Assembly: GCA_029776225.1 (NCBI GenBank)
Contig: JAKOTR010000080.1
Coordinates: forward strand, 1-64,000
Direction: 5' to 3'
DNA length: 64,000 bases
DNA from: Acidobacteriota bacterium
Lineage (GTDB): Bacteria > Acidobacteriota > Terriglobia > Bryobacterales > Bryobacteraceae
The translations under genes and the position numbers were made by a program. Within the stretch, counting starts at the first letter, position 1. Every line of letters starts with the position of its first letter. Below the pieces are notes generated by a model. It had not been told where the DNA came from. It worked only from the letters and a program-made list of their open reading frames with translations, and made no database searches. Positions 13,718 to 36,940 of the stretch are shown here, in pieces.

Positions 13718-15398
13718 AGAAGCACTCGGGACGTTGGAGGGGATCGGTCAACAAGACCACTCCGCCACTTGCGAGTATCGGATCTTCGGTCCGCCGGGCG
13801 CCGGCAAGACGACGAATCTAACCCGCCAGATCCGTCGCGCCGTCGAGAGATTCGGCCCCGATGCGGTATTGGTCACCAGTTTCTCGCGCGCAGCCGCTGC
13901 AGAGTTGGCCGGTCGCGACTTGCCGATCAGGCCGGACCGCATCGGAACCTTGCACTCCCACTGTTGGCACGCGCTGGGCGGGCCGGAGATTGCCGAAGCG
14001 AACGCCGATGAGTGGAACCGCGCACACCCGCATCTTGCGATCACTCCGGCCCGGAAGCAGAACAAGCTCGACGGCGAAGAGTCGATCGAAGAGGAAGGCG
14101 ACAGCACCAAGGAGGGCGACCGCCTCTTAGAACAGTTGAACCGGTACAGGGGCCTCATGATTGACCGCGCCCTGTGGCCGCCGATGCTGCGCGACTTCGA
14201 GAAGAAGTGGACAGAGCACAAGCACGCCCACGGAGTCTTGGACTTTGCCGACCTTATCGATACCTGCCTGCGAGACGTAGCGCTGGCGCCGAAGAACCCC
14301 GCAGTGATCTTTGCGGATGAGGCGCAGGACTTGAACAAGATGCAGTTGGCGCTGATCCGGAAGTGGGGCGAGCGCGCCAACTACTTCATCCTGGCAGGTG
14401 ACGACGATCAGACCATCTACTCGTTCACCGGCGCCTCTCCGGAGGCGATGCTCGAACCGGACATTCCCGAGGACCACAAGATCATCCTCAAGCAGAGCTA
14501 CCGCTTGCCCCGCGCCGTCCACCGTGTGGCCGAGGCGCTGATTCGGCGGGTTACGCGGCGCCAGGAGAAGATCTACCTGCCTCGGCCGGCGGAGGGCAAG
14601 GTCGAGCGGCTCTCCCGAGACGGCTACAAGTCCCCCGAGTTCTTCATCGTGCCGAGCGCGCTCGAGCATTTGGAACGCGGCAAGACGGTGATGTTCCTGG
14701 CCGCCTGCTCGTACATGCTGCACCCCGTGGTCGCAGTTCTTCGAAAGGAGGGCATCCCCTTTCACAACCCCTACCGGAGAGCTAACGGCTTCTGGAACCC
14801 ACTCCGGCGGGGCAGCCGGGGCTCGAGCGCCAATCGCCTGATCGCGTTACTCGGTGCGCAGGGGGGTATCGAGCAACCCCGGCGCCCGTGGACGTTCGGC
14901 GAAAGCTCGCTCTGGGCCGAATGCCTGAGGTCGAAGGGCATCCTGCGGGAGGGAGCGAAGAGGGAGCTCCGGACTTACGACGCCGACAGACCGGCGACGC
15001 TCGAAGAGTTGGATGAGTTGCTCGAACCGGACGCGATCGAGTCGCTTCTGGCAGCCTACGAACGCGACCATCACGCCCTCCTCGGCTGGTGGCAGGGGCG
15101 CGTGACGGCGGACGTTGCCAGGCGCATCCAGTATCCCGCAGAGATAGTCCGCCGACGCGGGCCGCGCGCGCTGATGGATCCCCCGCAGGTTGTGGTCGGC
15201 ACCATCCACTCCGTCAAGGGCGGGCAAGCGGATGTGGTGTACCTGTTCCCGGATTTGAGCCAGGCGGGAGACGCGCAGTACCAACGCTTCGGACCTGCGC
15301 GCGACTCGGTCATCCGGTTGTTCTACGTGGGCGTCACTCGCGCGCGGGAGACCCTGTACATCTGCCGGCAAGCGGCGGCCTTGGCGGCCTCTATCTGA
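13695..15398 (+). CDS. UvrD/Rep-type superfamily 1 helicase
   Basis: This 567-aa protein uses ATG 13695 or ATG 13704. Walker A is FGPPGAGKTTNLTRQI, motif Ia VTSFSRAAAAELA, motif Ib IGTLHSHCW, Walker B VIFADEAQDLN, motif III LAGDDDQTIYSFTGA, motif IV LKQSYRLPRAVHRVAEAL, and motifs V/VI TIHSVKGGQADVVYL and RLFYVGVTRARETLYI. All ATPase motifs are intact, so an active 3'-5' DNA helicase is expected. It is shorter than chromosomal UvrD, as in phage and plasmid versions. It overlaps the primase and abuts the integrase, consistent with element replication or resolution. Confidence 0.92.
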   Translation: MKAMTSTEEALGTLEGIGQQDHSATCEYRIFGPPGAGKTTNLTRQIRRAVERFGPDAVLVTSFSRAAAAELAGRDLPIRPDRIGTLHSHCWHALGGPEIAEANADEWNRAHPHLAITPARKQNKLDGEESIEEEGDSTKEGDRLLEQLNRYRGLMIDRALWPPMLRDFEKKWTEHKHAHGVLDFADLIDTCLRDVALAPKNPAVIFADEAQDLNKMQLALIRKWGERANYFILAGDDDQTIYSFTGASPEAMLEPDIPEDHKIILKQSYRLPRAVHRVAEALIRRVTRRQEKIYLPRPAEGKVERLSRDGYKSPEFFIVPSALEHLERGKTVMFLAACSYMLHPVVAVLRKEGIPFHNPYRRANGFWNPLRRGSRGSSANRLIALLGAQGGIEQPRRPWTFGESSLWAECLRSKGILREGAKRELRTYDADRPATLEELDELLEPDAIESLLAAYERDHHALLGWWQGRVTADVARRIQYPAEIVRRRGPRALMDPPQVVVGTIHSVKGGQADVVYLFPDLSQAGDAQYQRFGPARDSVIRLFYVGVTRARETLYICRQAAALAASI

Positions 15399-16718
15399 TT
15401 GAAAAAACGGGCCTTGCTTATGGGTTGGAACGAAGGTATCCTGCGGGCGCTGACAGGAGACGTCGCCTTGAGACAGCGAGTGCAGCACCCCAAGATCAAC
15501 GAATGCAAGGATCGGGCGAAGCCGTACTGGTTCTTCCGCTACTGGCACGACGAGTTGCTGGCCGACGGCTCAATCAGGACCACGCGCAAGCGCCGCATCG
15601 TCGGGCCGAGCAAAGGGCCGAACGCGCTCACGAAGAAGCAGGCCGAGGCGGAGCGCGACAAGTTCCTCGCCGAGCTGAACGCCGCACCGTCGCGCGCCGA
15701 AGCGGCAGCGGTGCAGCAACCCGTTGAGGCCGGCGCCATCCTTTTTGGCAGGCTCGCCCAATTGTGGCGCAAGGATTTCGTCGAGCGCGAGGTAGGTGGC
15801 AGGTCGCTGGTAGCGAAGTCCACGCGCGCGAAGTACGTCAACCATCTCGAGAACCACATCCTGCCGAGATGGAAAGACACGCGCCTGGCCGAATTCCGCA
15901 CCAAGGACGTTCTCGACTGGCTTCAGGAGACGTGCGAGTCCTGGTACATGATGGCCGACCTGCGGAACATCATGAGCGGCATCTTCACCAAGGCGCAGGA
16001 ATGGGAACTTCTGCCCGAGACGTTCGCCAACCCGATGCGGCGTGTCAAACTTCCCAAGAAATGGAAGGTGCGGCCGGAACGGATTCTGACGGAGGAGGAA
16101 ACCGTCCGGGTGCTGGCCCGGCTCGAGGATCCCCATTTGCTGATCTGTGAGACCTGCATCGCCACCGGCACCCGGATCTCCGAGGTCACCGGGCTGAAGA
16201 TCAAGCATCTTGATCTGGAAAAAGGCTGCATCCGGATCGAGCAGCGCCACTGGCGCGGCGATATCGATGCGCCCAAGACGGAGAAGAGCAGGCGCACGCT
16301 GGCGCTGGCGAACTTGGTTGATCGATACCGGCGGTGGGTTGCCGGGCTGGAGCACAGGGACCCGGAGGCCTGGGTCTTCCCGCAGGAGGAGGACAAGCGC
16401 AAGCCGCTGTGGGACTCCGGGGTCCGGCAGGCGCTCAAGAAGGCTGCGGTCGCCGAGGGCTGCGATTTTCCGGGGTTGGGTCCGCACTCCTTCCGCCGGG
16501 CCAACATCACCTGGCGGCAAGAAGTCGGCGGCTCCTCGATCGAGGCCTCCAGAATCGCCGGCCACGCCAGCACCAAGATCACCGAGGACTACACGGTCGT
16601 CCAATTGAAGCGGCAGGAGGAACTGACCCGCCGGATTCAGGACAAGCTGGCCAAGGCGGCCAAGCGCGCCAACAGGCCACACAAGGTGGCCGAAATCCGT
16701 GTGGAGCAGGTGGCATGA
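15399..16718 (+). CDS. int: Tyrosine recombinase / integrase
   Basis: The frame begins at TTG 15399 directly after the helicase stop; ATG 15420 is the likelier start, giving 432 aa. The N-terminal part has an arm-type region (AKPYWFFRYWHDELL), then a SAM-like core-binding domain (STRAKYVNHLENHILPRWKD). The catalytic domain has ATGTRISEVTGLK (Arg I), a Lys turn region (PKTEKSRRTLAL), HSFRRANITW (His-x-x-Arg), GHAS and the nucleophile in EDYTVV. All catalytic residues are present. It should insert and excise the element at the tRNA-Val site 1.8 kb downstream. Short repeats before that site may be its arm sites. Confidence 0.94.
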   Translation: MKKRALLMGWNEGILRALTGDVALRQRVQHPKINECKDRAKPYWFFRYWHDELLADGSIRTTRKRRIVGPSKGPNALTKKQAEAERDKFLAELNAAPSRAEAAAVQQPVEAGAILFGRLAQLWRKDFVEREVGGRSLVAKSTRAKYVNHLENHILPRWKDTRLAEFRTKDVLDWLQETCESWYMMADLRNIMSGIFTKAQEWELLPETFANPMRRVKLPKKWKVRPERILTEEETVRVLARLEDPHLLICETCIATGTRISEVTGLKIKHLDLEKGCIRIEQRHWRGDIDAPKTEKSRRTLALANLVDRYRRWVAGLEHRDPEAWVFPQEEDKRKPLWDSGVRQALKKAAVAEGCDFPGLGPHSFRRANITWRQEVGGSSIEASRIAGHASTKITEDYTVVQLKRQEELTRRIQDKLAKAAKRANRPHKVAEIRVEQVA

Positions 16719-18978: not shown

Positions 18979-19930
18979 ATGGTTGCGGCGGTACGCAATC
19001 TTTCGAAGTCGTTTTCCGGCCGCCCTGCGGTCTGCGATCTGTCGTTCACCGTGGAAAAGGGTGAGGTCTTTGGCCTTTTGGGGCCAAATGGCGCCGGGAA
19101 AACGACAACATTGCGGCTGGTGCTGGGACTGCTCGAGCCCACCAGCGGGAGCGCCTCTGTATTTGGAACGCCTGCAGTCCAGTTGACTCGCGAGCAGAAG
19201 CAGAAACGCGCCGCCGTGTGGACACTCACGGCGTGTATGACGAACTGACGGTCTATGAAAACCTCCGTCTTTACGCCCAGCTATACCGCGTAAAAGACTG
19301 GCATGACCGGCTCTCTGCGCTCATGAGCCTGACGAACCTGGGGGAGCGGCTGCATCACCGGGCAGGCAGCCTGTCAAAGGGCATGAAGCAGAAGCTTGCA
19401 CTAGCACGAGCGCTCCTCGCAGAACCCTCTTTTCTGATCCTGGATGAGCCCACTGCAGGACTCGACCCAATATTTCAGCGTGGGATGCTCGACTTGATCC
19501 ACGACCTCAACCGCTCCGGCAGGACCATACGCTGTCCTCACATAACCTGCATGAGGCCCAGGACGTCTGTACGCGTGTTGCGTTTTTGCGCAAAGGGCGG
19601 CTGCTCGGAGTTTACCCCGTATCCCAAGTGTTGAGTGACTATCAAGGCTGCCGGCTTGTCCTGTCATGCTCGGATCCTGTTGAACTCGGCGCGGCGGAAG
19701 AAGTGCTGACCAATCTACCGTTGGTGAGGACGCGCGTGAGGCAGACTAGCATTGAAGTACTGATGAAGGACCGCAGCCAGCGTGCGCTAATTGAATCCGC
19801 CATGATTAGGGAGGGCGTCAGTGTGTCGGTAGAAACACCGGAGGTTACACTGAATGAGGTCTTCGAAATCTTGATGAATTCCAAGGATGGCTCAGAGCCG
19901 CCGCCATCGGAGGTGGTGCATGCAGATTGA
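18979..19930 (+). pseudogene. ABC-2 type exporter ATP-binding protein, two frameshifts
   Basis: Three successive frames together form one complete ABC ATPase. Frame 1 from ATG 18979 has Walker [21 protein letters not shown] and stops soon after the first shift near 19216-19220 (a base appears missing in GTGTGGAC; the frame should run into [15 protein letters not shown]). Frame 2 carries the signature LSKGMKQKLALARAL and Walker B FLILDEPTAGLDP. A second shift near 19527-19533 moves the H-loop (LSSHNLHEAQDV) into frame 3, which ends at 19930 with EVTLNEVFEIL. Two shifts suggest decay, although sequencing errors would look the same. GC is lower than in the neighbours. It overlaps the permease by 11 bp. 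Confidence 0.85.
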
Positions 19931-20857: not shown

Positions 20858-20917
20858 CGGAGAATTCTTGCGTTCCGGCCTACGGTCGTGTACGATGCAG
20901 AAGATCGGAGGCTCGGG

Positions 20918-23900
20918 ATGCTGTCCAAACCCTGGGAAAACCGTAAGTCCACCTACGAGTTCATCGTTGTCGGTTCGGGGTACGGGGGATCGATTATGGC
21001 GGCGCGGCTGGCCGCCGCCCTCAACCAGCCGCACGCTGTCTGCGTGCTGGAACGCGGCAAAGAATGGCAGCCGGGCGAGTTCCCCGACGATATCGCCGGC
21101 ATCCTGCGGCACACCCGCAGCAGCGCGAACCCGCTGGGTCTCTACGAGTTCCTGACTTACCGCGATATCTCGGTCATAAAAGGCTCCGGGCTGGGCGGCA
21201 CCTCGCTGATTAACGCCAATGTCGCCGTCGTGCCGGATCCCGAGATCTTCGAACTCCCCGCATGGCCGCGCTCGGTTCGCTACGAGGAGATGAAGACCTA
21301 CTTCGAGCGTGCCCTCAAGGTGCTTGGCGCCAAACCGGCCCCCGGCGTAACCGATTTGTTTAAGTTCAAGGCGCTCGACCGCCGCGCCCAGCAGCTCGGA
21401 AAACGCGCCCAACCGCTGAACATCGCGGTGAACTTTGAGATCGACGGTCCGAACCCTTACGGCGTCGAGCAGCACCCTTGTAACAAGTGTGGCGACTGTA
21501 TCACGGGTTGTAACTTCCGGGCTAAGAACACCCTGGCCATGAATTACCTGCCCATGGCGGCAGCCGCGGGCGCCGATATCTTCACCCAGGTGAAGGTGGA
21601 ATGGATCGAAAAGCTGGGTGACCATCACTGGCGGGTCCACGGGCGGCGCTACAAAGACACGCGCAAGTCCGAGCGCTTCACCCTGGAGGCCCGGCACGTG
21701 GTGCTCGCTGCGGGATCGATCAACACCACCGAAATCCTGCTCCGTTCGGAAATGCACGGCCTCAAGGTCTCCCCGGCTCTGGGCACATGTTTCGGCGGCA
21801 ACGGCGATTTCTTCGGCCTGGCCTACAACGGCGACTTTCAGACCGACGTCCTGGGCTACGGCCGTGGCGTGCCCAAGCCCGGCGATGCGGGCTACCCGGG
21901 GCCTTCGATCGTAGGGGTGGTGCGTTACAACGGCGGCGCGCCGCCCGAAAAGCGCATCACCATCGAGGATTTCTCCTTCCCGAGCGCCTACGTCGCCGCC
22001 GCCAAGGCTGTTTTCGCTGCGATACGCGGCGAAGACACCGTTCTGGGCAACGAGGCGGCCCAGCAGCAGCGCATCGCCAGGGACTTCAACCCGAGCGCGA
22101 TCTACGCGCCCGACGGCGCCCTGAACCACACCATGCTCTACCTGGTGATGGGCCACGACGACGCCCGCGGCACAATGAAATTCGACGCGCCCTGGTACGA
22201 ACCCGACGGCCGCATGACCATCGAATGGGACCAGGTCGGCCAGCAGCTCGTCTTCCGCCGGATGGACGAGGAGCTGCGCCGCCATGCCCGCGCGCTGGGC
22301 GCCAACTACATCTCGCATCCGGTGTGGAACATTTTCCGTACGCGCCACCTGGTGACCGCCCACCCGCTCGGCGGCTGCCCCATGGGTGAGGACCACATGC
22401 AGGGCGCCGTCGATGAGTTCGGGCGCGTCTTCGCCAGCGACGGCTCCATCCATGGTGGTCTGTTCGTCGCCGACGGCGCCATCATTCCCTCGGCGGTGTG
22501 CGTGAACCCCTTCCTTACTATCTGCGCCCTGGCCGAACGCATCGCCGAGCGCAAGATCGAGGAGATGAACGGGCGGCCGTATCCCCAAAGGACGGTGGTC
22601 TCGATGGCGGGAACGTCGCTCGACCCGCTGGACGTCATTCACCGGACCGAGGCCGAGCTGGAAAAGCTCTTCCGCCGGTGTCCTTCCACCGGCATTGAGA
22701 CTCTGGTTAACCGCGGCGGCGTGCAGATCGACACCGCGACGATGACGATCCGCAATGACGACTACTGGAAAGGCTTCTTCCCCAAGGGCCACATCCTCAA
22801 TGCGATGTCGTCGGCCATCTTCACGGGTTTCAAGAAGACCTTCCAGAAGCGCGGCAAGCGCTACGTCGGCATCACCAGCGACACTGACGGCCGCATTACC
22901 GCGCACAACACGCTCGAAGAGATCGAGGTCTCCCGCAAGACCGGCACGCTCGAACCCGGCAAGTACGTGCTCCTGAAGTACCTCGACCCGCAGTGGGCCG
23001 CCTTCTACGACATCCTGAAGCCCATCAGCGACGATCTGGTCATCGGCCGCGTCTACCTGGGGCAGTACCCCAACGGCATGCGGCTGTTCACGTTCGTGAT
23101 GTCGCGCAAGTACGGCTTCGGCGAGATGACGGTCGCCGATCACCAGGCCCTTTTCGAGTCCGGCACGGCGCCCACAAAGGAAGAGCTGAACGGCGTCTGG
23201 CAAATGGACCTCGTCTCCAACAACAACCGCCTGGGCCGCGCGGCCTACCTGGCGTTCGATCTTAGGCCGGACGGCAGGCTCGAAGCCCGCTACCGGCTGA
23301 TGGGCCTGTTCGAGGGGCTGGTGATCCCCAGCTTCGCCCAGGATCACTTCCAGCTCAACGATTTCACGCCGTTCCGCGACGAGATCCGTAAGGTCACCGA
23401 TGATTTCTTCGTCGGACGCTACATCACCGGCGGGTTCGCCAATCTTCCGTCCCTGCTGAACGGGCCGGATCTTGGCCTGCTGCACGCCGTGCCCGGCTCG
23501 GATGCCTTCGGAGTCTACTACACGCTTTCCCGCACCGGGAAGAAAGCGCTGCCCACCAACTCCCTGCTGGCGCCGTTCCTCGACGCGCGGTTACCGGACG
23601 GCGTCGGCATGACGTTCGATGAAACCATGACCGGCTGGTTCTTCGAGGGCGCCTCGGAAGCGGCAGGCAAGGAGGGCGACCTGCGGATCGCGGACCGCAT
23701 CCCGCGCGACGGCGCTCCGAAGGATGGGGTGGAGGCGAGCTTCCAGGTGCGCATCACGGTGCGCGACGTGAACGAGTTCATCGACGGCCTGGCGCACGAG
23801 GCGGGGATGAGCGGCTCCATCACCTTCGCCCGTTTCCAGGGCACCAGCAACGTCACCTTCCCGCTAGACGAGCAGGCGAGTTCCTTCCAATACCTCGTGG

Positions 23901-25318
23901 TGAACCATGCTACCGGCGAGGCCGAGATGCGCTACCACCTGGTCTTTCACGACGCGGCCGGCACGAGCTATCTGCTCGAAGGCCGCAAGTACATGGAGCG
24001 CAGCGGGCGCGGCGGCGCCGCCGCCATCCGGGAGCTGCTCTACGACTACACGACGCTCTATTGCCGCGTCTACCGGCTGGATGCCGCCGGGAGCCGCCAG
24101 CCGTTGGGGCTCGCGTACCTGAAGTTCCGCACCTTCGAGGATCTCGCCGCGGTGGGCAACCTGGCTGGATTCCTTGCTTCGTTCCGCGTCACTGGGACCG
24201 CGGATCCGGCCTTGCAGCTCCAGGCGCGCATGCGCTTCCTGGCTTTCACAGGCCAATTCGTGCAACGCGAATACGACCCGCTGTCGCCCGATATCGGCCG
24301 GCTCGACGTGGACGTGGAGGCGGAGGTCCGGCGCGGCGCCGACACCCCGGACTACTTCACTACGCGCCCCACCAGCGAGTTGCACGCCATTCTCCGGGAG
24401 ACGCAGTCGCTGCCGCTCGAGCGCCTTCTCAACACCGGCGCCAGGCGCATCGACCTAACCCGCCGGCGCGTGATCCGCGACATCTTCTGGAAGGGCTCCT
24501 TCGCCGCCGACACCCTGCTCGGCTGGGAGGAGCGCCTCCGGAATCAAGCGGTCCCCGGCGCCGAGCGCGCTGCGGCCATCTTCGCCCGCGGCAGTTTCTG
24601 GAAGCGCTTTGACCGCATCGAGAACGGCCGTGCCACGGGACACGTGGTGAACTACGATCTCGAGTGGCTTCCCGGCGATCCCGAGGTGCGCGAGGTCGAG
24701 TATCCCGACGACAACCGCCGCTATTTCAAGAAGGGCGACCGCGTGCTGCTGCTCACCTACCGCAACGACCCCTACCGCATCGTCTACGACACCATCAAGC
24801 TCATCGACGAAGACAACGCCATCGGGGTAATGCACCTGGGCGACTTTCCCAATGGGATAGAGTTCGCCGCCTTCGTGATGTCGCGGCACAACTACCCGCT
24901 GGAGCATATGTCCATCGAGGACCACGAAGCCATCTTCAACATGCCGGGCGTTGAGGCAGTCGAAATCGAGGCGGCTAGCGCATGGGAGGGCAACCTGGTG
25001 CCGCTGGAACATCCGGGGACCAGCTTGCTCCGCCGGATCCCCGACGCGCCGGTGCGCATCGAGGTGGACTCCAACGGGAACCGCTCCCTGACGCTCGAAG
25101 CTGGTGGATCGAAGATGGTTTTTCCCCATGGTCAGGTGACGCTGGAGGTCCGGCGCATCGACGCCGATACGTTGCTGGGCAAAGCGGTCATCGCCGCCGC
25201 GGAGGTCTCGCTCGCCGCCGCGCTCCGCAACTACGCCTCCAGCGAAGATGGCCGGCTTGTGCTGCGCTGCCTCGTGAACCGCGCCGCGCGTGCGGAGTCC
25301 GGCGCCGCCGGATTGTGA
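20918..25318 (+). CDS. GMC oxidoreductase fused to a long C-terminal region with a duplicated module
   Basis: I chose ATG 20918 because GGAGG lies at 20907-20911; a GTG at 20888 would add 10 residues. The protein is 1466 aa, about 900 longer than usual GMC enzymes. Residues 10-560 form a cholesterol-oxidase-like flavoenzyme: FAD motif IVVGSGYGGSIMAARLA, GSGLGGTSLINANV, the Cys series CNKCGDCITGCN, and the active-site blocks HPLGGCPMG and NPFLTICALAERIAE. Residues about 614-745 and 1188-1340 share a repeated module with YDxIK, LGxxPNG, FVMSR and EDH/ADH-x-AIF blocks (YLGQYPNGMRLFTFVMSRKY versus HLGDFPNGIEFAAFVMSRHN). Between them is beta-rich sequence. No signal peptide is seen. It converges with the CHAT operon, 31 bp apart, and probably belongs to it functionally. 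Confidence 0.88.
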   Translation: MLSKPWENRKSTYEFIVVGSGYGGSIMAARLAAALNQPHAVCVLERGKEWQPGEFPDDIAGILRHTRSSANPLGLYEFLTYRDISVIKGSGLGGTSLINANVAVVPDPEIFELPAWPRSVRYEEMKTYFERALKVLGAKPAPGVTDLFKFKALDRRAQQLGKRAQPLNIAVNFEIDGPNPYGVEQHPCNKCGDCITGCNFRAKNTLAMNYLPMAAAAGADIFTQVKVEWIEKLGDHHWRVHGRRYKDTRKSERFTLEARHVVLAAGSINTTEILLRSEMHGLKVSPALGTCFGGNGDFFGLAYNGDFQTDVLGYGRGVPKPGDAGYPGPSIVGVVRYNGGAPPEKRITIEDFSFPSAYVAAAKAVFAAIRGEDTVLGNEAAQQQRIARDFNPSAIYAPDGALNHTMLYLVMGHDDARGTMKFDAPWYEPDGRMTIEWDQVGQQLVFRRMDEELRRHARALGANYISHPVWNIFRTRHLVTAHPLGGCPMGEDHMQGAVDEFGRVFASDGSIHGGLFVADGAIIPSAVCVNPFLTICALAERIAERKIEEMNGRPYPQRTVVSMAGTSLDPLDVIHRTEAELEKLFRRCPSTGIETLVNRGGVQIDTATMTIRNDDYWKGFFPKGHILNAMSSAIFTGFKKTFQKRGKRYVGITSDTDGRITAHNTLEEIEVSRKTGTLEPGKYVLLKYLDPQWAAFYDILKPISDDLVIGRVYLGQYPNGMRLFTFVMSRKYGFGEMTVADHQALFESGTAPTKEELNGVWQMDLVSNNNRLGRAAYLAFDLRPDGRLEARYRLMGLFEGLVIPSFAQDHFQLNDFTPFRDEIRKVTDDFFVGRYITGGFANLPSLLNGPDLGLLHAVPGSDAFGVYYTLSRTGKKALPTNSLLAPFLDARLPDGVGMTFDETMTGWFFEGASEAAGKEGDLRIADRIPRDGAPKDGVEASFQVRITVRDVNEFIDGLAHEAGMSGSITFARFQGTSNVTFPLDEQASSFQYLVVNHATGEAEMRYHLVFHDAAGTSYLLEGRKYMERSGRGGAAAIRELLYDYTTLYCRVYRLDAAGSRQPLGLAYLKFRTFEDLAAVGNLAGFLASFRVTGTADPALQLQARMRFLAFTGQFVQREYDPLSPDIGRLDVDVEAEVRRGADTPDYFTTRPTSELHAILRETQSLPLERLLNTGARRIDLTRRRVIRDIFWKGSFAADTLLGWEERLRNQAVPGAERAAAIFARGSFWKRFDRIENGRATGHVVNYDLEWLPGDPEVREVEYPDDNRRYFKKGDRVLLLTYRNDPYRIVYDTIKLIDEDNAIGVMHLGDFPNGIEFAAFVMSRHNYPLEHMSIEDHEAIFNMPGVEAVEIEAASAWEGNLVPLEHPGTSLLRRIPDAPVRIEVDSNGNRSLTLEAGGSKMVFPHGQVTLEVRRIDADTLLGKAVIAAAEVSLAAALRNYASSEDGRLVLRCLVNRAARAESGAAGL

Positions 25319-25349: not shown

Positions 25350-26285
25350 TCAGACCACTCGGTAGGGCGGCTCGAAGTCGGCTACTCCGGCATGGCGTGC
25401 TGCCATCCAGCGCAGGACGTAGACCTGCGCCGGGTCGGTCTTGGATCCTGTCAGCGCGTTGGGCAGCACTTCGAGCAGGATGTGGGCCCCCGGGTCCCTG
25501 TAGTAGTCGATATCCAGCTCCACCTTGATGAAGGGCTGGCAAGGGTGCCTGTCGTTCTCGTGAAAGGTGATCTGGACGTTGGCTTCGCCGAACTGCGCCT
25601 GCTTGTAGCTTCTGGTGGCGCCAGGGTGGAACGGGAGGGCGTCGGGCCGCGGCTCGAAGGCGCCCTTGGCGGCAGCGCGCTCCACTTGGTCCAACAGCCT
25701 CGTATCGGCCCAGGCAAAGAAGCGGTCCTGGTCCATCTGGTCCCAGATGAGCTCCTGCAGGTAATCTACGGGCGTGCCCTCCGGTAGGTGAATCTCCCGC
25801 AACGCGGTGAAAATGTTCAGGAAGCACGCGAGCGCGGCGGGGCGCTGCTCGAGCAGGTCTGTGTAGCGCCTGGCGGCGGTGTCCTTATCAGGAGGATCAC
25901 CAGCGCCGGCCGTCAGCACCCGCGCGTAGGCAGGGTCTCGCAGCAGCGTTTCCCAACGCGCCTCGTGAAAGTTGTATTCCGGGTTGTTGCGCACGAGCAT
26001 CAGATCGATCTTCCCGGGTTGATCCGGAGTCACCTTGACCGGGGTGAAGCCGACCTGCCGGAAACCTTCCGCCCAGGCCACCACCGTGTAGCTGTCACCG
26101 AAGTTATTGTGAAACGGCAGTTTTTTGAACACAATCCTCGACGCTTTGTGAAACTCTCGGTGTACCTGTTTCTGGTATCCGTTCAGCAGGGTAATCAGGA
26201 TGTTGGCGTCTGTCCTCAGGGGCTCGCGCAGCCCCGAGTACAGGCTTACTGTGATCTGGCAGGTTGGTTTCGTGGACTTAGGCAT
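25350..26285 (-). CDS. Beta-rich protein of unknown function, last gene of the CHAT operon
   Basis: This 311-aa protein starts at ATG 26285, 11 bp after the lipase gene. The first 95 residues (CQITVSLYSGLREPLRTDAN, IVFKKLPFHNNFGDSYTVVA, GFTPVKVTPDQPGKIDLMLV) resemble an Ig-like or carboxypeptidase-regulatory-like beta-sandwich. The remainder is mixed helical with an aromatic, charged C-terminal domain (FIKVELDIDYYRDPGAHILL). No signal peptide or catalytic motif is visible. I do not recognise the family. Its place beside a lipase suggests a binding or targeting partner. Confidence 0.7.
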   Translation of the reverse strand: MPKSTKPTCQITVSLYSGLREPLRTDANILITLLNGYQKQVHREFHKASRIVFKKLPFHNNFGDSYTVVAWAEGFRQVGFTPVKVTPDQPGKIDLMLVRNNPEYNFHEARWETLLRDPAYARVLTAGAGDPPDKDTAARRYTDLLEQRPAALACFLNIFTALREIHLPEGTPVDYLQELIWDQMDQDRFFAWADTRLLDQVERAAAKGAFEPRPDALPFHPGATRSYKQAQFGEANVQITFHENDRHPCQPFIKVELDIDYYRDPGAHILLEVLPNALTGSKTDPAQVYVLRWMAARHAGVADFEPPYRVV

Positions 26286-26296
26286 CTTCTATGCGG

Positions 26297-27145
26297 TTAT
26301 GCGATGCCGGAGACGCTCTGGGCGATTCGTAAATAAACGGCCTGAATGGCGCGTTCGTACTCGACCGGGTTCTGTCCCGCCAGCCACTCGCGGACGTCCC
26401 ACCAGCCGATTTGGTTGAAATGGTCGGCGGGAATCGGGAAGCGGTGCTGTGCGACGCGTTTTCTATGGCCGTCCGATACCAGTTCGGCGCACCACAACTG
26501 GGAGCGCACCGGCACCAGTCCATCGTTGTCTCCTTCGAAATTTTGGATGATCTGCCAGAATGCCTGGAGCGGACCGAGCACGCGGTATTTCTCCTGGCTG
26601 CTCGCGTAGGTTTGGTACACCACCGGGTTGGCGGCTTCCGCTGCTTCGGCGCGCCGGTTGAATGCCTGGCAGGCGCTGGTGGTAAGGGAGGCGAACCCCC
26701 GGAGATCCACCACATCCTCGAGTGCGCGGATCAGCTCGTCCCCGCCGTTGCTGAGGCCCCAATCGGCGAAGCTGGTGCCAAGGTGCGGTGTTCCCACCGT
26801 CGTGAGACTTGCCACCTTCTGATCCATCCCGGGGATGTCCACGATCATGTGCCGCGCATCCAGCCCGCCCATGCTGTGACCGATGATGTGAACCTTCCCG
26901 TGCCGCGCGCACAGCGCATCCACCTGCTCGGCCAGCTCCCTGGAGCGCTGCTCGATGCTGGCGGCGAAACTGACGTTGGTGTGATAGACGGTGAAGCCGT
27001 GCTGCTGGAGAAACGGCCTGATGTTGCGGAAGTAGTGCAGGGCGTCGTTGCCGGTAATGTCCGTGAGAATGCCGCGCGCCTCCAATTCCCTTCGCAGAAT
27101 GTCGAACCGCGCGATGCCATGCGCCAGAACGATGGGATAAGCCAT
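26297..27145 (-). CDS. Alpha/beta-hydrolase lipase
   Basis: This 282-aa protein has the layout of Pseudomonas-type triacylglycerol lipases. The oxyanion segment is PIVLAHGIARFD; the nucleophile elbow is VHIIGHSMGGLDARH (Ser91); and the loop TVGTPHLGTSFADWG is typical. A likely catalytic Asp lies in EGDNDGLVPVRSQLW and His in IPADHFNQIGWW. No signal peptide is present, so it stays cytoplasmic unless exported by another route, which is unusual for this lipase group. It lies 14 bp after the metalloprotease gene and 11 bp before the beta-rich gene. In a CHAT operon it may attack membrane lipids once released; this is inference. Confidence 0.87.
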   Translation of the reverse strand: MAYPIVLAHGIARFDILRRELEARGILTDITGNDALHYFRNIRPFLQQHGFTVYHTNVSFAASIEQRSRELAEQVDALCARHGKVHIIGHSMGGLDARHMIVDIPGMDQKVASLTTVGTPHLGTSFADWGLSNGGDELIRALEDVVDLRGFASLTTSACQAFNRRAEAAEAANPVVYQTYASSQEKYRVLGPLQAFWQIIQNFEGDNDGLVPVRSQLWCAELVSDGHRKRVAQHRFPIPADHFNQIGWWDVREWLAGQNPVEYERAIQAVYLRIAQSVSGIA

Positions 27146-27159
27146 GAGTACCCTCTCCT

Positions 27160-28533
27160 TTACTGAAGCCGCTGGAAGATCCGCGCGAAATCCTGCTTAC
27201 CCAGCTTGCGGTTCTCCTCGTCGGCCTTTTGCTGTTGCTGCTGCGTGCGCGCCCGCTCCCCGGAGCGCAGATCGCTGGTCAACAGGCTCTCCATTTTTTG
27301 CTCCAGCCGCTCGGCGGGCGAGATGCCGTTGATGGGCCGGTAGTACGCATCCGGTTTCGTCGCGTAGGCGATGCGCGCTGCCGCCAGCATCACCCGCAGG
27401 TCGCGGTAGTCCTTGAGCACCCTGCCTTCGAGCGCGCATTGCGCCTGCGTCCGGGCGCGCTCGTACTGCGTCGCGTCGAAGGTGAGAGCCGAACGCAGCG
27501 AGCCGCCCAGGGCTTCGATCTGGCCGTCCAGGAAACGCTCGGCAATCGCCGGCGCATCCTCCTCGGCGAAGCAGGACTGCCCGGCCGGCAGCGGATACTC
27601 CGCGTCCCAGGCCGTCAGGATGCGATCAGCCGGTTCCTCAAAGCCCATCTTCCGGAGGACCTGAACATTGATGCGGACGCGCAGGTTCTCCGGCGGGTAC
27701 GGCTCCACGGCCGGCTGACGGGCCAGCAGTTCCTGCGGGTCCGCCAGCAGGAAATCGGCCAGCGCGCAGACGAACGGCGGCCCCGCCGCCAGGCAGCCAC
27801 AGACGTCCGCGAACACCTCCGAGCGCCACGCCTTCCACAGCGGAGCGCGCGCCGCGCCCCCGGATTCTTCGAGCGCTTCGTCGATCATGGTGTCGAGCGC
27901 CGCCTCCAGGTCGAAGTCGGCCTCCACCGAGTGGCCCACTTCGTGCCCGATGGCGAGGGCGTCCGGCAAGTGCAGCACCTGGTTCCACGGCACCCCGATC
28001 ACTGGAAACGGCAGCGACGAGGTGGCCTGCTTGAAGCCGGAGCCGCTGATCAGCTCTCGCGGAACCGCCTCCGCCTGGAAACTTGCGTCGCGAGTGAGGA
28101 TGAACGGGCTCATCCCGCCGTTCAGGTAAACCAGCGGTGGCTCCTTCATCGCGCGCCCGGGGTTCGCCTGCCGCGCCTGCTCGTAGATCGGGTGGTAACA
28201 CAGCCAGGCGAACTCGTCGGCAATCGCGAGATACCGCGCGAAGGCCTTCTCGTAACGCTGCGCCAGCTTGGAGCGGAAGAACTCCCAGATGCGATGTACT
28301 GCCAGCAGAGTGCGCGCCATTTCACGCGCGGTGGAAAGGCTGTTGTCGGTGGCCAGGATTTCACGGACGGCGTCCTGAAAGCCTTGCAGGCGGCCGATGG
28401 CGGCGCGCACCTGGGTGTGGTGCTTGGGGAACGGGCCGCCGGGGGCGGTGGCATTCAACCAGCGCTCGAACTCAAGCGCCAGGGCCTCCATCTTCCGCTC
28501 GACTTCCGCCTGCTTGCGTTCCGCGTAGCCCAT
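27160..28533 (-). CDS. HEVGH metalloprotease candidate
   Basis: This 457-aa protein is mostly helical. The zinc motif is AIGHEVGHSVEADF (His197, Glu198, His201), and a probable third ligand is Glu239 in WRSEVFADVCG, the gluzincin-like spacing of an HExxH helix followed by an E-x-x-AD helix about 38 residues on. The N-terminal 120 residues form long helices (MEALALEFERWL, EFFRSKLAQRYEKAFAR), and the C-terminal tail is a Gln-rich coiled stretch (RARTQQQQQKADEENRK). No signal peptide is seen. It starts 4 bp after the STAND gene, so it is translated with it. I do not know a named family with this architecture. Confidence 0.72.
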   Translation of the reverse strand: MGYAERKQAEVERKMEALALEFERWLNATAPGGPFPKHHTQVRAAIGRLQGFQDAVREILATDNSLSTAREMARTLLAVHRIWEFFRSKLAQRYEKAFARYLAIADEFAWLCYHPIYEQARQANPGRAMKEPPLVYLNGGMSPFILTRDASFQAEAVPRELISGSGFKQATSSLPFPVIGVPWNQVLHLPDALAIGHEVGHSVEADFDLEAALDTMIDEALEESGGAARAPLWKAWRSEVFADVCGCLAAGPPFVCALADFLLADPQELLARQPAVEPYPPENLRVRINVQVLRKMGFEEPADRILTAWDAEYPLPAGQSCFAEEDAPAIAERFLDGQIEALGGSLRSALTFDATQYERARTQAQCALEGRVLKDYRDLRVMLAAARIAYATKPDAYYRPINGISPAERLEQKMESLLTSDLRSGERARTQQQQQKADEENRKLGKQDFARIFQRLQ

Positions 28534-28537
28534 GCCG

Positions 28538-31500
28538 TTACCACGCCACCGGAATTTCGGGGTCCAGCGTGAACAGAGCCGGCGGCAGCAGAAGCGGCAA
28601 CTCCGCGAGGCCGCGATACAAGTCGGCGGCGGAGCGCCGCTCAGCGGCGGCGTCGGCCATCCGCCTCACCGCGTCGCGCAGCACGAAGGGATCCGCAAGG
28701 CCGGCCGCCAGCACACCCCGCGTGTTGCCGAAGCGGAACAGTTCGTCGCAGAAGGCATTCCGCAGCAGCGCCTGCCGGGCCTGATCGTAGGGGTCCGGAG
28801 GCAGGACGGCTTCCACGAGAACAAAAGGATGCAAGCCGGCGCCGGAGATGCGCCGCAGCCATCCGTCCAGTGCGCTGGGGGTGATGGTTGATTCCATGCC
28901 GCCGAAATCCAGGCACACCTCGCCAGTTCGTGTCGACTCCTGGAACGCCGTCACGAGGTGCACCAGGGTGGGGCGGAAGCCGGGCAGCCCCACCAGGGCC
29001 AGTTGCTCCGGTTCGTTGAGCCGCACGACTTCCACGCCGCACCGGATGTATTCGGCCGGCATCTCCACCCCGAAGTTGCTGTGCCCCCGCTTCGTGACCT
29101 GCTGCCGCTCCACGCTCGCTTGGATGATGAGGACCTGCGGCTTCTCCTTCGGCGGGTGTTCCGCCAGCAGTCTGGCGCGGGCTTCCCGCGGATCGTCGCC
29201 GAAGGCCTTCAACAGGCTGTCGGTCTGGGGACCGTAAATGCCATCGATAATAATGTCGCGGCCGGATCGCTGAACGGCCTCCTGCAGCATCAGGACCGTG
29301 TCGCGGATGGGAACCGGCTGAATGGGGCGCCTGTAGATGGTCCGGTACGCCGCGCCCGGCAGCACGGCCTCCCAGGGAATCGAAGCCAGCGCGCCGCGCG
29401 AAGTGCGAACTTCCAGGTAGGGACCGGGCAGCGCGCCCAGCGGCGCGAGCGAATCGCGCAGATGCGCCAGAAGGCTCTCGCGCGAATAAGCAAGTGGCTC
29501 CACCAGCTCGGCCGCGAAGCCACGGGAGCCGGAGGCGGCCGGCTCCAGCCGGATCGTGTGGACCTCCTTGGTGGGTGACTGCGCCCGCACGCCTTCGGGC
29601 GTTTTTTCCAGGAGCAGCGTGACCACGGGGGGCAGCAGGTCGGCATCCCGGTGGCTCTGGGACGCGACGTTCCTGTACGCCTCAATTTCCTTAGCCAGGG
29701 AAGCCGCCTTCAGCGCCGCCCCGGATTCCACCGCGGAGCGCTGCGCGGTCAGCAGCGCGGTGAGCGCCTCGCGTTGCTTGCCCGCACGCACGGCCAGCCT
29801 GGCGCGGACCTCGTGACGCCGCGCTACCCAAAGCGAATGGTCGGGAAAGTACTCGCCGATGAGGCGCTCGGCCTGCTCGAACAGTTGTGCGGTCCGCCTG
29901 GGAACGTCGTCCAGAGAGTATTCCGCCTCTTCAAGCAGCGCCGTGCCCCACAGTTCCGGGAACTTGCTGTAGGCTGCGCGGTAGGCCGTCAGATAGGCGT
30001 CGCGATCCGGCAGCTCCAGCAGCCCGGCGCGTCGCATCGCGGCGCGGAGTTGCCGCTGGAAGTGCGGCTGCTCGCGGCACTCCCGGTAGGCAGCCAGCAG
30101 AACTTCGCGGGCCTGTTCCGCCAAACCAAAATGGGGCGCCGCCAGACCCCATAGCCACGCTCGCAGCGCGAAATCGCGGTCGCCGCGCTGGGGCCGCGGA
30201 TAGACTTCGCCGAAGCGCTGCCGGAACCCGGAATACTGCACACGCTGCGCGACGGGCTGGCGCCGGTAGGCATCCAGGAACGGAAAGCGCGCGGCCAGAT
30301 CGAGGGCCTCCACCTCTTTCAGAAAAGCGGCGATTTCTTCCCGGGTGGCCAGCCCCAACGCGCCCAGGTAGGCCAGAACCCGCAGCCGGCGCCGTTGCGA
30401 AGAGGTTCGCTTGAGGATCTCCCGCAGCACATAAGCGGCGCGCTGGGGTTTGCCGGATTCGGCCAGGATGCGTGCCTTCAGCAGCGGGCGATCGGCGGCC
30501 ACACTTGCCTGAGCGCGGGGGATCGAGTGCAGCGTCTCCTCCGCCTGGTGCACGTTGCCGGCGGCCTCCAGAAACAGCATGGCCTTCTGGAACAGCGCCT
30601 CCAGCGGACCGGTGGAAGATCCCTCGCGCACAAAGGCGTCGCGAGCCGCGTTGAACTGCTCCTCAGCTTCGTTCACTCGGAACGCCGCGCGATTAACAAG
30701 GCCACGCAGCAGCCGCGTAGTGCCGTCCTCGCCGAACGGGAGCAGGCTAAGCGCTGCCGCGGGATTCTGCCGCTCCAGCGCCAGACGCACCCGGATGCGA
30801 GCGATCTCGTACGGCATCCACGGGTTGGAGGCGGCCAACCTGCGAGCCTGCGGCGATTCCGCCAGGCGTGCGGCATCCGACCAGCGCCCCAGTTCGCACA
30901 GCACGCGGCAGCATCCTGCCAGGAGCTCGGGCGCATAGTCGGGCGCAGTACGGCCGGCCGCCGCCCGCTTCCATGCTCGCTCGTAGCACTCCAGCGCGCG
31001 GCCTAACTCCTCGCGATCCTCCAGCCGCCGCGCCCGCCGGAACTCGATCCACTCGGGCGAAAGAGGTGGCGCGGCAAGGCGCGCCGCCCGCCGTGCAGCC
31101 GCCGCGAACCAGGCATCCCCCTTGTCCGGATCGTGTTCGTAATGGCAGCGGCCGAGCAGGTACTCCGCCATCACCAGAGCGGCGGAGTCTCGCGACGGGC
31201 CTATGACGCGCAGCAGCAGCTTTTCCGCCGCCGCGCGGCGCTCCAGGAACAGCAGGTGCGCGGCCTCCAAAATCGACGCGCGCAACTCCTGAACACGCGG
31301 TTTCGCGGCGCGCTTCATGAAGGAACGAAAACGCCGGTAGGCGTCGTTGAACTCGCCCTCGAGCCGCTCGGCGTCGCCCTCGAGGCTGCGCAGGCGCAGC
31401 CGCTCGACCAGCAATCCCCAGGCCTGCACGGCGGCCGCTTCGGCCAGCAGGTCGTAATCCACCAGAGGGCCCTCGAGATACTCCACCGGGCGCCCGTCAT

Positions 31501-33562
31501 CGCCTGCGAAATCGCTCGAAAGCGGCACTTCGGCGATGCGCGCGGACGCCGCCGGCTCCCTTGCCTGCGGCGAAGCGAGGGCGCGCCGCCAATGCTCCGC
31601 GGCCGCCGTTCCCTCAAGGTGGAAGCGGTGATACAGCGCTTCGGCCATGTGCCGCGCCCAGCTCACGGCGTTTTTCTTGGATTGGGCTGCGCGCCGCTCG
31701 AAATACCGCACTGCCGCCCGCTGCAACAGCGGATGGATTTCCTGCTCGCGGAGCAACTGCCGCATGGGGACGCGGACTTCCGGCTGCAGTACCAGCACGT
31801 CGCCGTGCAGCTCCACCCAACTGTGATCGCTGGCGTAGCGGCTGAGCTGGTTCCACAGCCGCCGGAGGTCTTCTTCCCGGTGCTTGCGCCACACTTCCCG
31901 TCCGGCGTAAAGCGACAGCTCGCCTCGGAATTCGTTGGGACGGTCCAGTTGCGACCGCCGCGTCATCTCCTTCAGCAGGAACGGCCCCAACACGTCCCGC
32001 ATGAACTCGAAAGTCAACTGCCGCGGCACAACCGCGTAGCGCAGCAGCCACGCAACGCCGTGCTCCTCCGGCGGGATGCGATCGATGATGCGCTCAATCA
32101 GCCGCGCGTACTGCGTTCCCGGATAGCGCTCGACATCGCGCGCGGTCATCCCCGGGCTGGCGATGGCCAGGTCCGCGAACAGGGCCAGCTCGAACGGGTT
32201 GCCCTGGGTCTTCTTGATAATCGCCTGCACGGGCGTCTGCGGCGGCACTTTACGGAGGTCGCGCAGGTAGTGCAGGCTCTCCTCCGGCTCGAAACCTTCG
32301 ATGAGCAGCCGGTCCTCGAGGGCGCAATGCTGCTTCATGAACTGCGGAAGACGCCCCGGATCGGCCAGGTTGTAGCGTCCCGCCAGCAGCAGTTGCAGTC
32401 CCGGACACCTCTCGCGCAGCCGCGCCAGTTGGTTGAGTATGGCCTGCAGCCCGGAGCGGTGATGCAACAGCAACTCCTCGATGGTGTCGAGCACGATCAC
32501 CACATGGCTGTCTCCGAGACCTGACTGGAAGAGAGCGGGAATCTCGGACGCCAGCATTTCGGCTTCCGGACGGAGCCGCTGGAGCAGGAGCGAGCGGGAA
32601 TCGTCGCGGCCCTGGACGGCCGGCCGCCGCAGCACCGCTGCGAAATCGCCAAAGCCGTGTATCAGGCTCAGGAACGGACTGCCGGGAAGCTGCACGTTGA
32701 GCTGCCGGGCAACCGGCAGCAGAACCAGCCACGGCCATCGCGACAGCGACGGCAGGTCCAGGCGGTCCGAATCCAGGCGCGCGACCGGAATCCGGCGGCC
32801 GTCGATCTCCCGCACGCAGCGCCGGGCGATCAGCCACCGGATGAACATGGTCTTGCCGAAGCCGCCCTTGCCATAGAGGTGCAGGATCCACCGGCGGGTA
32901 TCGCCCTGCCACTCCTCGAAGTGCCGCACGAGCGAGGGCCGCTCGACGAACGCCATGGTGCGCCAGTAATCGTCGGCGAAGAGCGTCCGGGAGCGATAGT
33001 ACTGCTCGCGGTCGTCCAGCGCGTCGCGCAGCGCCTGGGGGATGAGAGAGGGGAAGAGTCCGTTGCGGTGCCTCACGATGCGGATCAGCGTGTCGCACTG
33101 CGCCAGGTCGAAAGCCTCGTCCGCCTCACGGTAGAGCCGCAGGAATTCCTCGAGCGCCCGCGCAGGATCGGCAAGCACAAGGTGTGTGAAGCGCTCCAAC
33201 GGATCGATCGGCTCGAAGTATGCGGCCAGCTTCGCACTGAAGGCGCGCGCCTCTTCGGGTTGCTGCTTCCAGGCCTCCAGCCCCGCACGGGCGGCGTCGT
33301 CGCGCAGTGCGTAGCGCACGGGTTCGCCGCGCAAGCGCTCCACGTCCGGAGAAGCGATGAACGCCTCCCAGTCCGGCGCGTCCGGGAGGTCCGCCGCCAG
33401 TACCCGTTCAAAAAGCTCACGGTCGAACCATCGCAGCAGGGCAGCACGCCGGAGCAGCGGCGATGCAGGCGGCTCTGGCGGCGCATCCAGGACCATGTTG
33501 AACAGGTCCGTGAGCGTCCGGCCCCGCTCGATCATTGCAAAGAGCTGATCCTTCGTAAACAC
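28538..33562 (-). CDS. STAND NTPase with helical repeats and degenerate CHAT-like C-terminus
   Basis: The protein is 1674 aa and starts at GTG 33562, which overlaps the preceding stop in TAGTG. Residues 1-100 form a small helical N-terminal domain (TLTDLFNMVLD, LLRWFDRELFERVLA) that may be an adaptor. A P-loop follows (ILHLYGKGGFGKTMFIRW, about 225-242) and Walker B is HVVIVLDTIEELL (353-365). A winged-helix-like region and TPR-like alpha-helical repeats fill about 600-1330. The C-terminal 300 residues begin like a CHAT domain (LEVRTSRGALASIPWEAVL), keep a His in LVHLVTAF, but have no Cys at the expected strand end (FVLVEAVLPP). Residues about 1417-1452 insert a PGBD-like segment (VLMLQEAVQRSG, DGIYGPQTDSLLKAF). 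It is likely the ATP-dependent sensor or scaffold of the operon. Confidence 0.85.
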   Translation of the reverse strand: MFTKDQLFAMIERGRTLTDLFNMVLDAPPEPPASPLLRRAALLRWFDRELFERVLAADLPDAPDWEAFIASPDVERLRGEPVRYALRDDAARAGLEAWKQQPEEARAFSAKLAAYFEPIDPLERFTHLVLADPARALEEFLRLYREADEAFDLAQCDTLIRIVRHRNGLFPSLIPQALRDALDDREQYYRSRTLFADDYWRTMAFVERPSLVRHFEEWQGDTRRWILHLYGKGGFGKTMFIRWLIARRCVREIDGRRIPVARLDSDRLDLPSLSRWPWLVLLPVARQLNVQLPGSPFLSLIHGFGDFAAVLRRPAVQGRDDSRSLLLQRLRPEAEMLASEIPALFQSGLGDSHVVIVLDTIEELLLHHRSGLQAILNQLARLRERCPGLQLLLAGRYNLADPGRLPQFMKQHCALEDRLLIEGFEPEESLHYLRDLRKVPPQTPVQAIIKKTQGNPFELALFADLAIASPGMTARDVERYPGTQYARLIERIIDRIPPEEHGVAWLLRYAVVPRQLTFEFMRDVLGPFLLKEMTRRSQLDRPNEFRGELSLYAGREVWRKHREEDLRRLWNQLSRYASDHSWVELHGDVLVLQPEVRVPMRQLLREQEIHPLLQRAAVRYFERRAAQSKKNAVSWARHMAEALYHRFHLEGTAAAEHWRRALASPQAREPAASARIAEVPLSSDFAGDDGRPVEYLEGPLVDYDLLAEAAAVQAWGLLVERLRLRSLEGDAERLEGEFNDAYRRFRSFMKRAAKPRVQELRASILEAAHLLFLERRAAAEKLLLRVIGPSRDSAALVMAEYLLGRCHYEHDPDKGDAWFAAAARRAARLAAPPLSPEWIEFRRARRLEDREELGRALECYERAWKRAAAGRTAPDYAPELLAGCCRVLCELGRWSDAARLAESPQARRLAASNPWMPYEIARIRVRLALERQNPAAALSLLPFGEDGTTRLLRGLVNRAAFRVNEAEEQFNAARDAFVREGSSTGPLEALFQKAMLFLEAAGNVHQAEETLHSIPRAQASVAADRPLLKARILAESGKPQRAAYVLREILKRTSSQRRRLRVLAYLGALGLATREEIAAFLKEVEALDLAARFPFLDAYRRQPVAQRVQYSGFRQRFGEVYPRPQRGDRDFALRAWLWGLAAPHFGLAEQAREVLLAAYRECREQPHFQRQLRAAMRRAGLLELPDRDAYLTAYRAAYSKFPELWGTALLEEAEYSLDDVPRRTAQLFEQAERLIGEYFPDHSLWVARRHEVRARLAVRAGKQREALTALLTAQRSAVESGAALKAASLAKEIEAYRNVASQSHRDADLLPPVVTLLLEKTPEGVRAQSPTKEVHTIRLEPAASGSRGFAAELVEPLAYSRESLLAHLRDSLAPLGALPGPYLEVRTSRGALASIPWEAVLPGAAYRTIYRRPIQPVPIRDTVLMLQEAVQRSGRDIIIDGIYGPQTDSLLKAFGDDPREARARLLAEHPPKEKPQVLIIQASVERQQVTKRGHSNFGVEMPAEYIRCGVEVVRLNEPEQLALVGLPGFRPTLVHLVTAFQESTRTGEVCLDFGGMESTITPSALDGWLRRISGAGLHPFVLVEAVLPPDPYDQARQALLRNAFCDELFRFGNTRGVLAAGLADPFVLRDAVRRMADAAAERRSAADLYRGLAELPLLLPPALFTLDPEIPVAW
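29589..29606 (+). other. Terminator-like hairpin antisense to the STAND gene
   Basis: ACGCC-TTCG-GGCGT is followed by five more T on the plus strand, the form of a strong intrinsic terminator with a stable tetraloop. It lies inside a minus-strand coding region (codons for EKTPEGV), so it may be chance or may stop antisense transcripts. Confidence 0.3.
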
Positions 33563-35571: not shown

Positions 35572-35575
35572 GGGA

Positions 35576-36940
35576 TCAGCAGATGGTTTCGGAATAGTGC
35601 TCCAGGCCGTCCTCGCTGATGTAGCGCGCGCGGATCGATCCGTCTTCGAAGTCCAGAACCGCGAAACCGAAACGCGTGAAGCGCTCGAGCCCATCGCGGA
35701 AGGTCTCGCGAAACTCGTGGACCACCCCGGGTGGCGTCGGGCCTTTCGGCGCGTAAACCGGGACGCCCCCGTGGCCCACCAGCCGCGCATAGGGCACGGG
35801 GTGGTTGCGGTCATAGATCGCGCAGCGATGCTCGTGCGCCCAGAACCACGCCGTAACGCCATTCGGCTGCGAGAGCACCGGTTGCAGCTTGCGCTCCAGT
35901 TCCGGAGACCCTCCTTCCCAGGCACTGAACAACTGGTGATGGCTCAGGAGCACGGCCTTTTTCTGCGGCGCGGCGGCGCGCTTCTCCCGCACCCACGCCG
36001 CCTGCGGGCCGTACAGGCTCCCCTTTTCGCCGCGGTAATCCTGGGCATCGTAGCCGGTGTCCAGGGCCAGGATCTGCCAGTGGTCGTTCTCCAGCGAGAA
36101 GTAGCTGCATCCGCCCTGGCGCGCAAAGCGCGGCTCCTTGAGCAGGTAGTCGAAATAGGCATGCCCGCCTGTGAACATGTCGTGGTTGGCGTTGAGGCAG
36201 AAAGAGCCGATGGCGTCCGCTTCGGACTCCTTCACCGGCCAGAAGGGCAGGAAACGGTCGCGGTATTCGCTTTCGAAGCCCGAGTAGTAGACGTCGCCCA
36301 GGTGGATGACGTGCCGCTCGCGGTCCGGCGCCGCTTCGAGTTCCCTGCGCATGCGCGCGGCTACTTTTTGGGCGCGCGGCACGCCGCTGCCCCAGTCCCC
36401 CACCAGCAGCACGCGGGCTCGGTTGCCGATCCGCACGGTTGGAGGCGGCGCGGTGGGGAAGGGCCGCTGCCCGCGCATGGCGGCCAGGGCCTTGGCTGCC
36501 AGGAAGGCCACCGCCCAGCGCGGATCGGTCATTTCAAAGGGCCGCGCGAAACCCTGCGGTCCGGCGGGCTGCCACTCGGCCTTGAGAGAGCGGTCAGTGA
36601 TGGCGACGTCCTGACCCGCCAGTCCCTGGGCTGCGGTCTCATCCACTGCGCCGGCGTCCCGATAGAACTCTTCAATGGCCGATTGGAGAACGCCGGTCAT
36701 GGGGTCGCGCGCAATCCACGCTGCGTCGCTGCCGCTCGCCGGCGGCGTCCCCTGGGCGCGCAGGTCCCGGATGGCGTTCAGCGCGTCGCGCAGGTCTGCT
36801 GGGCCCAGACCGTGCGATTCGGCCATGGCCGCCGCGGCCGTGTCCCCATCTTCCAGAGCGCGCGCACGGTTTTCGAGCGCACCTTCCACAACCTGGAGAC
36901 ACTTCTCGAAGTCGCTTGCAGAAACGATTTCCCGGATCAT
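35576..36940 (-). CDS. Calcineurin-like metallophosphoesterase, first gene of the CHAT operon
   Basis: This 454-aa protein starts at ATG 36940. Residues 1-165 are a helical N-terminal extension with no known motif. The phosphoesterase core follows with all metal-site blocks: VLLVGDWGSG, HLGDVYYSG, LNANHDMF (GNHD variant), AVLLSHHQLF and FWAHEHR. It has no signal peptide, unlike the exported phosphoesterase at 39172. The substrate cannot be told (nucleotide, phosphoprotein or lipid phosphate are possible). As first gene in an operon with CHAT and STAND proteins it may make or remove a signal for the system. A possible promoter -10 box lies 32 bp upstream. Confidence 0.88.
   Translation of the reverse strand: MIREIVSASDFEKCLQVVEGALENRARALEDGDTAAAAMAESHGLGPADLRDALNAIRDLRAQGTPPASGSDAAWIARDPMTGVLQSAIEEFYRDAGAVDETAAQGLAGQDVAITDRSLKAEWQPAGPQGFARPFEMTDPRWAVAFLAAKALAAMRGQRPFPTAPPPTVRIGNRARVLLVGDWGSGVPRAQKVAARMRRELEAAPDRERHVIHLGDVYYSGFESEYRDRFLPFWPVKESEADAIGSFCLNANHDMFTGGHAYFDYLLKEPRFARQGGCSYFSLENDHWQILALDTGYDAQDYRGEKGSLYGPQAAWVREKRAAAPQKKAVLLSHHQLFSAWEGGSPELERKLQPVLSQPNGVTAWFWAHEHRCAIYDRNHPVPYARLVGHGGVPVYAPKGPTPPGVVHEFRETFRDGLERFTRFGFAVLDFEDGSIRARYISEDGLEHYSETIC

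Follow-up and report, generated by a model that had tools for sequence, protein, structure and literature searches.

GMC-type flavoenzymes that resemble the protein described here are known in several forms. Cholesterol oxidases (e.g., PDB codes 1b4v and 4u2l; NCBIfam equivalog NF058674) lack C-terminal modules, and 4u2l also lacks a cysteine motif. In the flavin adenine dinucleotide (FAD) glucose dehydrogenase of Burkholderia cepacia (BcGDH), an iron-sulphur (Fe-S) cysteine cluster formed by Cys212, Cys218, and Cys222 lies next to the FAD, and the enzyme is partnered by a hitchhiker protein and a multihaem cytochrome (PMC6719666). A third form, represented in Azospirillum (WP_149201188.1) and Leptospira (WP_002741297.1), carries between its GMC domain and an alpha/beta hydrolase a domain that we call MID2. 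In the literature collection that we searched, nothing relevant turned up on GMC enzymes with a lipocalin, a hopanoid, or a fused hydrolase. Here we analyze a gene from a soil Acidobacteriota bacterium of the family Bryobacteraceae, contained in a stretch of 64,000 nucleotides (hereafter the window; contig JAKOTR010000080.1 of assembly GCA_029776225.1, positions 1 to 64,000, forward strand). In this gene, a GMC domain, MID2, and a module (M-L) present in two copies that diverged long ago are joined in one frame; M-L also occurs as a free protein encoded beside GMC genes.

The open reading frame (20888–25318, forward strand) is uninterrupted. We favor the ATG at 20918 as its start, with GGAGG 6 bases upstream, giving the 1,466-residue protein to which all residue numbers refer; the upstream GTG at 20888 is an alternative that would give 1,476 residues, and the residue numbers of a preliminary description of this DNA agree with that start. 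Both copies also lie in one unbroken frame in relatives from many genomes, and the fusion is therefore not an assembly artefact. One long-form relative (L019/L039, 2772–7032) is broken across several frames, through either sequencing errors or gene decay. The domain order is very probably GMC (1–560), M1-L1 (578–884), MID2 (890–1126), and M2-L2 (1145–1464), as listed in Table 1.

The preliminary description reported a duplicated module after the GMC domain, and the repeat is real. A BLAST comparison aligned the region following the flavoenzyme with the C-terminus (220 residues, 28% identity, E = 7e-19), and the Smith-Waterman score of the two segments was 187, whereas 1,000 shuffles averaged 37 and reached at most 83. 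In a profile comparison that included relatives (hhalign), the repeat grew to ~300 residues per copy (about 576–884 versus 1145–1464, E = 2e-36), with the M halves matching at E = 2e-31 and the L halves alone at E = 1e-10. The segments originally delimited (about residues 614–745 and 1188–1340) are thus a true repeat but represent only its middle, and the span 22750–24945 begins and ends inside the two copies. Every motif named for them occurs, and in the stated order, with one deviation: copy 1 has YDILK where YDxIK was given. The M and L profiles also have one short motif in common, [FY]-x-D-x-[IF]-[KR]-x-[IV]-x-x-[DN]-x-x-[IL]-G (hhalign P = 0.00075; score 25.7 versus a maximum of 20.6 among 60 shuffles), suggesting that M and L are themselves distant relatives of each other. 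No Pfam or NCBIfam family covers the ~300-residue module; both libraries recognize the GMC domains only. A weak Pfam match of M1 to GIY-YIG (0.003–0.05), found in just 2 of 23 members, was treated as chance.

The N-terminal part is a clear GMC enzyme, matching Pfam GMC_oxred_N (E = 3e-18; 66.8 bits, cut-off 23) and GMC_oxred_C (E = 4e-14; 53.8 bits, cut-off 24.6), and its active-site motifs HPLGG (His482) and VNPF (Asn530) are invariant among relatives. Among solved structures it is nearest to cholesterol oxidases (E = 5e-24), sharing with them the GMC fold and the HP(L)GG and VNPF motifs, whereas its score for NF058674 is 180 bits, far under the 850-bit cut-off. The suggestion of a sterol or hopanoid substrate derives from that nearest structure and that score, and is not supported. 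With one exception, every relative covering the region keeps the cysteines of the motif C188-x2-C191-x2-C194-x3-C198, and the motif is found in the hydrolase-fused branch as well. BcGDH likewise combines a GMC enzyme with a cysteine cluster, which there carries Fe-S (PMC6719666), although its cysteine spacing is not identical and it has no barrels of the kind described below. By this analogy, the motif suggests that an external acceptor, not oxygen, receives the electrons.

The same parts recur in other combinations. In a different acidobacterial family, five separate neighboring genes (L078, 250–6181) encode an aldehyde dehydrogenase, MID2 (222 residues), a copy-2-type M-L protein (332 residues), a GMC protein (525 residues), and an alpha/beta hydrolase (362 residues), and at another locus (L080) a copy-1-type M-L gene adjoins a GMC gene. 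Three further loci (L134, 5872–9190; L135, 724–4037; L136, 5444–8757) have a GMC gene followed 10–20 bases later by a separate M1-L1-MID2 gene of 541–543 residues. The MID2 profile matches the GMC-hydrolase fusions of Azospirillum, Leptospira, and the paralogue L022 at E = 1e-10 to 1e-14; their GMC domains are 39–40% identical to that of the window protein, but they lack M-L and end in the hydrolase, at the position where the window protein has M2-L2 and where Pfam finds no hydrolase domain. In Pseudonocardia, a free MID2 protein adjoins GMC and hydrolase. When parts are fused in some genomes and encoded side by side in others, they usually function together. From this recurrence, which is our main evidence, we infer that the modules serve the flavoenzyme within one multi-part complex.

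Of the genomes searched for the module, 45 of 200 from the window's family, 27 of 399 from across the class, and 6 of 396 from across the phylum contained it; plasmids and viral contigs yielded none. Proteins of the long form, which have both copies, come from the window's family and from a second one in its class, while many relatives stop after MID2, and in one (L021) all that is left of L2 is a remnant. A long branch with full support separates copy 1 from copy 2 in the tree, and stand-alone proteins group with each of them. On this topology we reject a recent tandem duplication serving a symmetric ligand: the copies are ancient, diverged subfamilies, each with its own stand-alone relatives. 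Long and short proteins interleave within the copy 1 part of the tree, requiring at least five changes. The C-terminal copy is thus ancient and has been repeatedly lost or gained. One stand-alone module (L082) is broken, and a contig titled Acidimicrobiia (L038, VFZE01000062.1) has an acidobacterial-type copy matched by a genome of the window's family (G032), so that it is probably a mislabelled metagenome-assembled genome.

To describe the fold of the modules, we used an AlphaFold model of M-L alone, based on an alignment of 26 sequences (mean predicted local distance difference test (pLDDT) score 85.6, predicted template modelling (TM) score 0.82). The model contains two successive all-beta domains, and M and L are each predicted to be a calycin-like beta-barrel, which would give four barrels per protein. 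The best PDB matches in Foldseek were 2o62 (DUF3598, a double barrel, aligned along both barrels), 4mve (Tcur_1030, of the GXWXG/DUF4334 type; probability 1.00, E = 2e-4, TM-score by target length 0.56), and 4nw4, with further matches to nitrophorins, fatty-acid-binding proteins, and lipocalins. When the L hidden Markov model was searched against 177,635 PDB sequences, the sole match was again 4mve (E = 1.1), aligned at the motif shared by M and L, and the 31-residue piece of 4mve at that match is clear DUF4334 (E = 8e-15). Single members matched DUF4334 in Pfam with a best E of 0.008 and GXWXG with a best E of 0.006; one scan gave top scores of 16.6 bits for DUF4334 and 15.3 bits for GXWXG. 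Since these three lines converge, each of them weak, L and probably M are likely very divergent GXWXG/DUF4334-type barrels outside that family; Tcur_1030 is a single small protein, whereas here the barrels stand in tandem within a flavoenzyme and score below the family cut-offs. A search for true DUF4334 members in Acidobacteriota and 13 plasmids matched none, and its controls were also silent. MID2 is predicted to be beta-rich, and a structure search returned only weak barrel-type matches, none convincing.

We favor, with a probability of about 0.45, a ligand-handling role in which an Fe-S-type GMC dehydrogenase uses its barrels to bind or present a hydrophobic alcohol. The pieces, fused or separate, would form one complex; the GMC domain would oxidize a bulky hydrophobic alcohol, electrons would pass through the putative Fe-S loop, and the barrels would retain substrate or product and pass it along, presenting it to the flavin. 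In relatives without the C-terminal copy, or with a hydrolase in its place, an esterase or phosphoesterase may free the alcohol first. The idea that the modules are binding domains, already present in the preliminary description, is thus plausible on the predicted fold, unlike the symmetric ligand attached to it. Several observations weigh against this role. Calycin folds are no proof of lipid binding; the TM-scores of the barrels to PDB structures are weak, being 0.25–0.45 for matches other than 4mve; the DUF4334 and GXWXG matches all fall under the Pfam cut-off (25 bits); and W-K-G and Y-D-x2-K, which are strongly conserved, might just as well belong to a catalytic site.

The last point leads to the view that the M-L modules are themselves enzymes, carrying out a second step (isomerization, cyclization, or hydrolysis) on the GMC product by means of a barrel with a conserved Trp-Lys-Gly, Asp, and Tyr-Asp-x2-Lys set, with two diverged copies for different intermediates. 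Polar residues are invariant in both copies and in most stand-alone forms, and separate ancient clades of copies are what different activities would give, but the closest structures are binding or uncharacterized proteins, and neither a catalytic template nor, in PDB and Pfam searches, an enzyme family was found; we consider this view unlikely. We also regard as unlikely a purely structural role, in which the modules assemble the GMC enzyme with a phosphoesterase, oxidase, or hydrolase and bind no ligand of their own. Such scaffolds would suit the occurrence of the same parts as fusions and neighboring genes, a C-terminal copy that is dispensable in many relatives, and the partner subunit bound by Fe-S GMC dehydrogenases such as BcGDH (PMC6719666); however, conservation sits on barrel motifs rather than on an evident surface, and scaffolding alone leaves the conserved W-K-G and Y-D-x2-K unexplained.

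The reading that builds on the preliminary description, in which the duplication is recent and serves to bind a symmetric lipid of the sterol or hopanoid kind that the adjacent lipase provides, is very improbable. It draws on the cholesterol oxidases as nearest relatives of the GMC domain and on a PGAP1-like lipase gene (26297–27145) 1 kb away, but the copies are too diverged for a recent duplication, and the lipase was rejected as a functional partner: the locus comparison found no relatives of it beside other family members, and it has no similarity to the hydrolase that the wider family carries, whether fused or as an adjacent gene. The earlier interpretation was therefore right in part, on the novelty of the fusion and its possible binding modules, and wrong on the recent duplication and the lipase.

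Neighboring genes were compared across 41 loci with a GMC gene, which are of unequal lengths and in some cases truncated, so that the counts are indicative only: a metallophosphoesterase is near the GMC gene in 14, an FAD_binding_4/ALO oxidase in 13, a relative of a 311-residue protein in 11, and at least one of the three in 27. The window has the first and the third type. In three loci (L023, L024, and L025), the relative of the 311-residue protein is directly downstream of the GMC gene in the same direction. A 724–765-residue protein without a Pfam match (e.g., L033, 2565–4739; L096, 14356–16653) lies near GMC in 7 loci.

In the window, a tightly packed run on the reverse strand (25350–36940) encodes the metallophosphoesterase, a CHAT protein, a 1,674-residue AAA/TPR-like protein, a 457-residue protein (a possible metallopeptidase), the PGAP1-like lipase, and the 311-residue protein; its first and last genes are recurrent GMC neighbors, and the run looks like a conflict-system cluster. 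A defense-system reading was rejected, as PADLOC gave only SAVED_CHAT (2e-6, for the CHAT gene) and no CHAT or AAA relatives lie beside other members. Elsewhere in the window, a helicase-like gene followed by a probable tyrosine recombinase, identified by eye from the translation (13695–16718, forward strand), may mark an island boundary, and a short ABC-transporter ATPase fragment (19218–19634, forward strand) adjoins an ABC-2 permease gene and is possibly frameshifted.

Table 1. Positions in the window of the fusion gene, its parts, and the recurrent neighbors.
Feature	Position	Strand	Basis
Whole fusion gene	20918..25318	+	Single open frame; GGAGG; long-form relatives in many genomes
GMC flavoenzyme domain, residues 1–560	20918..22597	+	Pfam GMC_oxred_N and GMC_oxred_C; nearest structures cholesterol oxidases; invariant His482 and Asn530
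CxxCGxCxxGC motif, residues 188–198, possible Fe-S ligands	21479..21511	+	Conserved among relatives; C-x3-C end resembles the 3Fe-4S loop of BcGDH
M1, first barrel domain of copy 1 (predicted), residues 578–752	22649..23173	+	Self-alignment, family alignment, AlphaFold model
L1, second barrel domain of copy 1 (predicted), residues 753–884	23174..23569	+	hhalign to L2, E = 1e-10; profile matches only 4mve in PDB
MID2, beta-rich domain (predicted), residues 890–1126	23585..24295	+	MID2 profile matches; AlphaFold pLDDT 82
M2, first barrel domain of copy 2 (predicted), residues 1145–1350	24350..24967	+	Self-alignment, E = 7e-19; hhalign M1-M2, E = 2e-31
L2, second barrel domain of copy 2 (predicted), shortened, residues 1351–1464	24968..25309	+	hhalign L1-L2, E = 1e-10
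Conserved neighbor, unnamed family, 311 residues	25350..26285	-	Homologues beside GMC in 11 of 41 loci
Calcineurin-like metallophosphoesterase, recurrent neighbor type	35576..36940	-	Pfam Metallophos, E = 9e-10; relatives near GMC in 14 of 41 loci

Taken further, the ligand-handling role would describe a previously undescribed redox class, in which a phosphoesterase or esterase partner would supply a hydrophobic alcohol to a built-in carrier, made of four calycin barrels and MID2, that presents it to an Fe-S GMC dehydrogenase and then hands on the product. In other bacteria of the wider family, the equivalent would be a complex of separate subunits. We consider this reading possible, if doubtful. 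The analysis defines two domains without a name, M-L and MID2, together with a recurrent set of partner genes, in a branch of GMC enzymes that is large and little studied. As the parts are fused, split, or neighboring, they predict a physical complex that is directly testable, and they offer a handle on what the abundant Acidobacteriota of soil oxidize.

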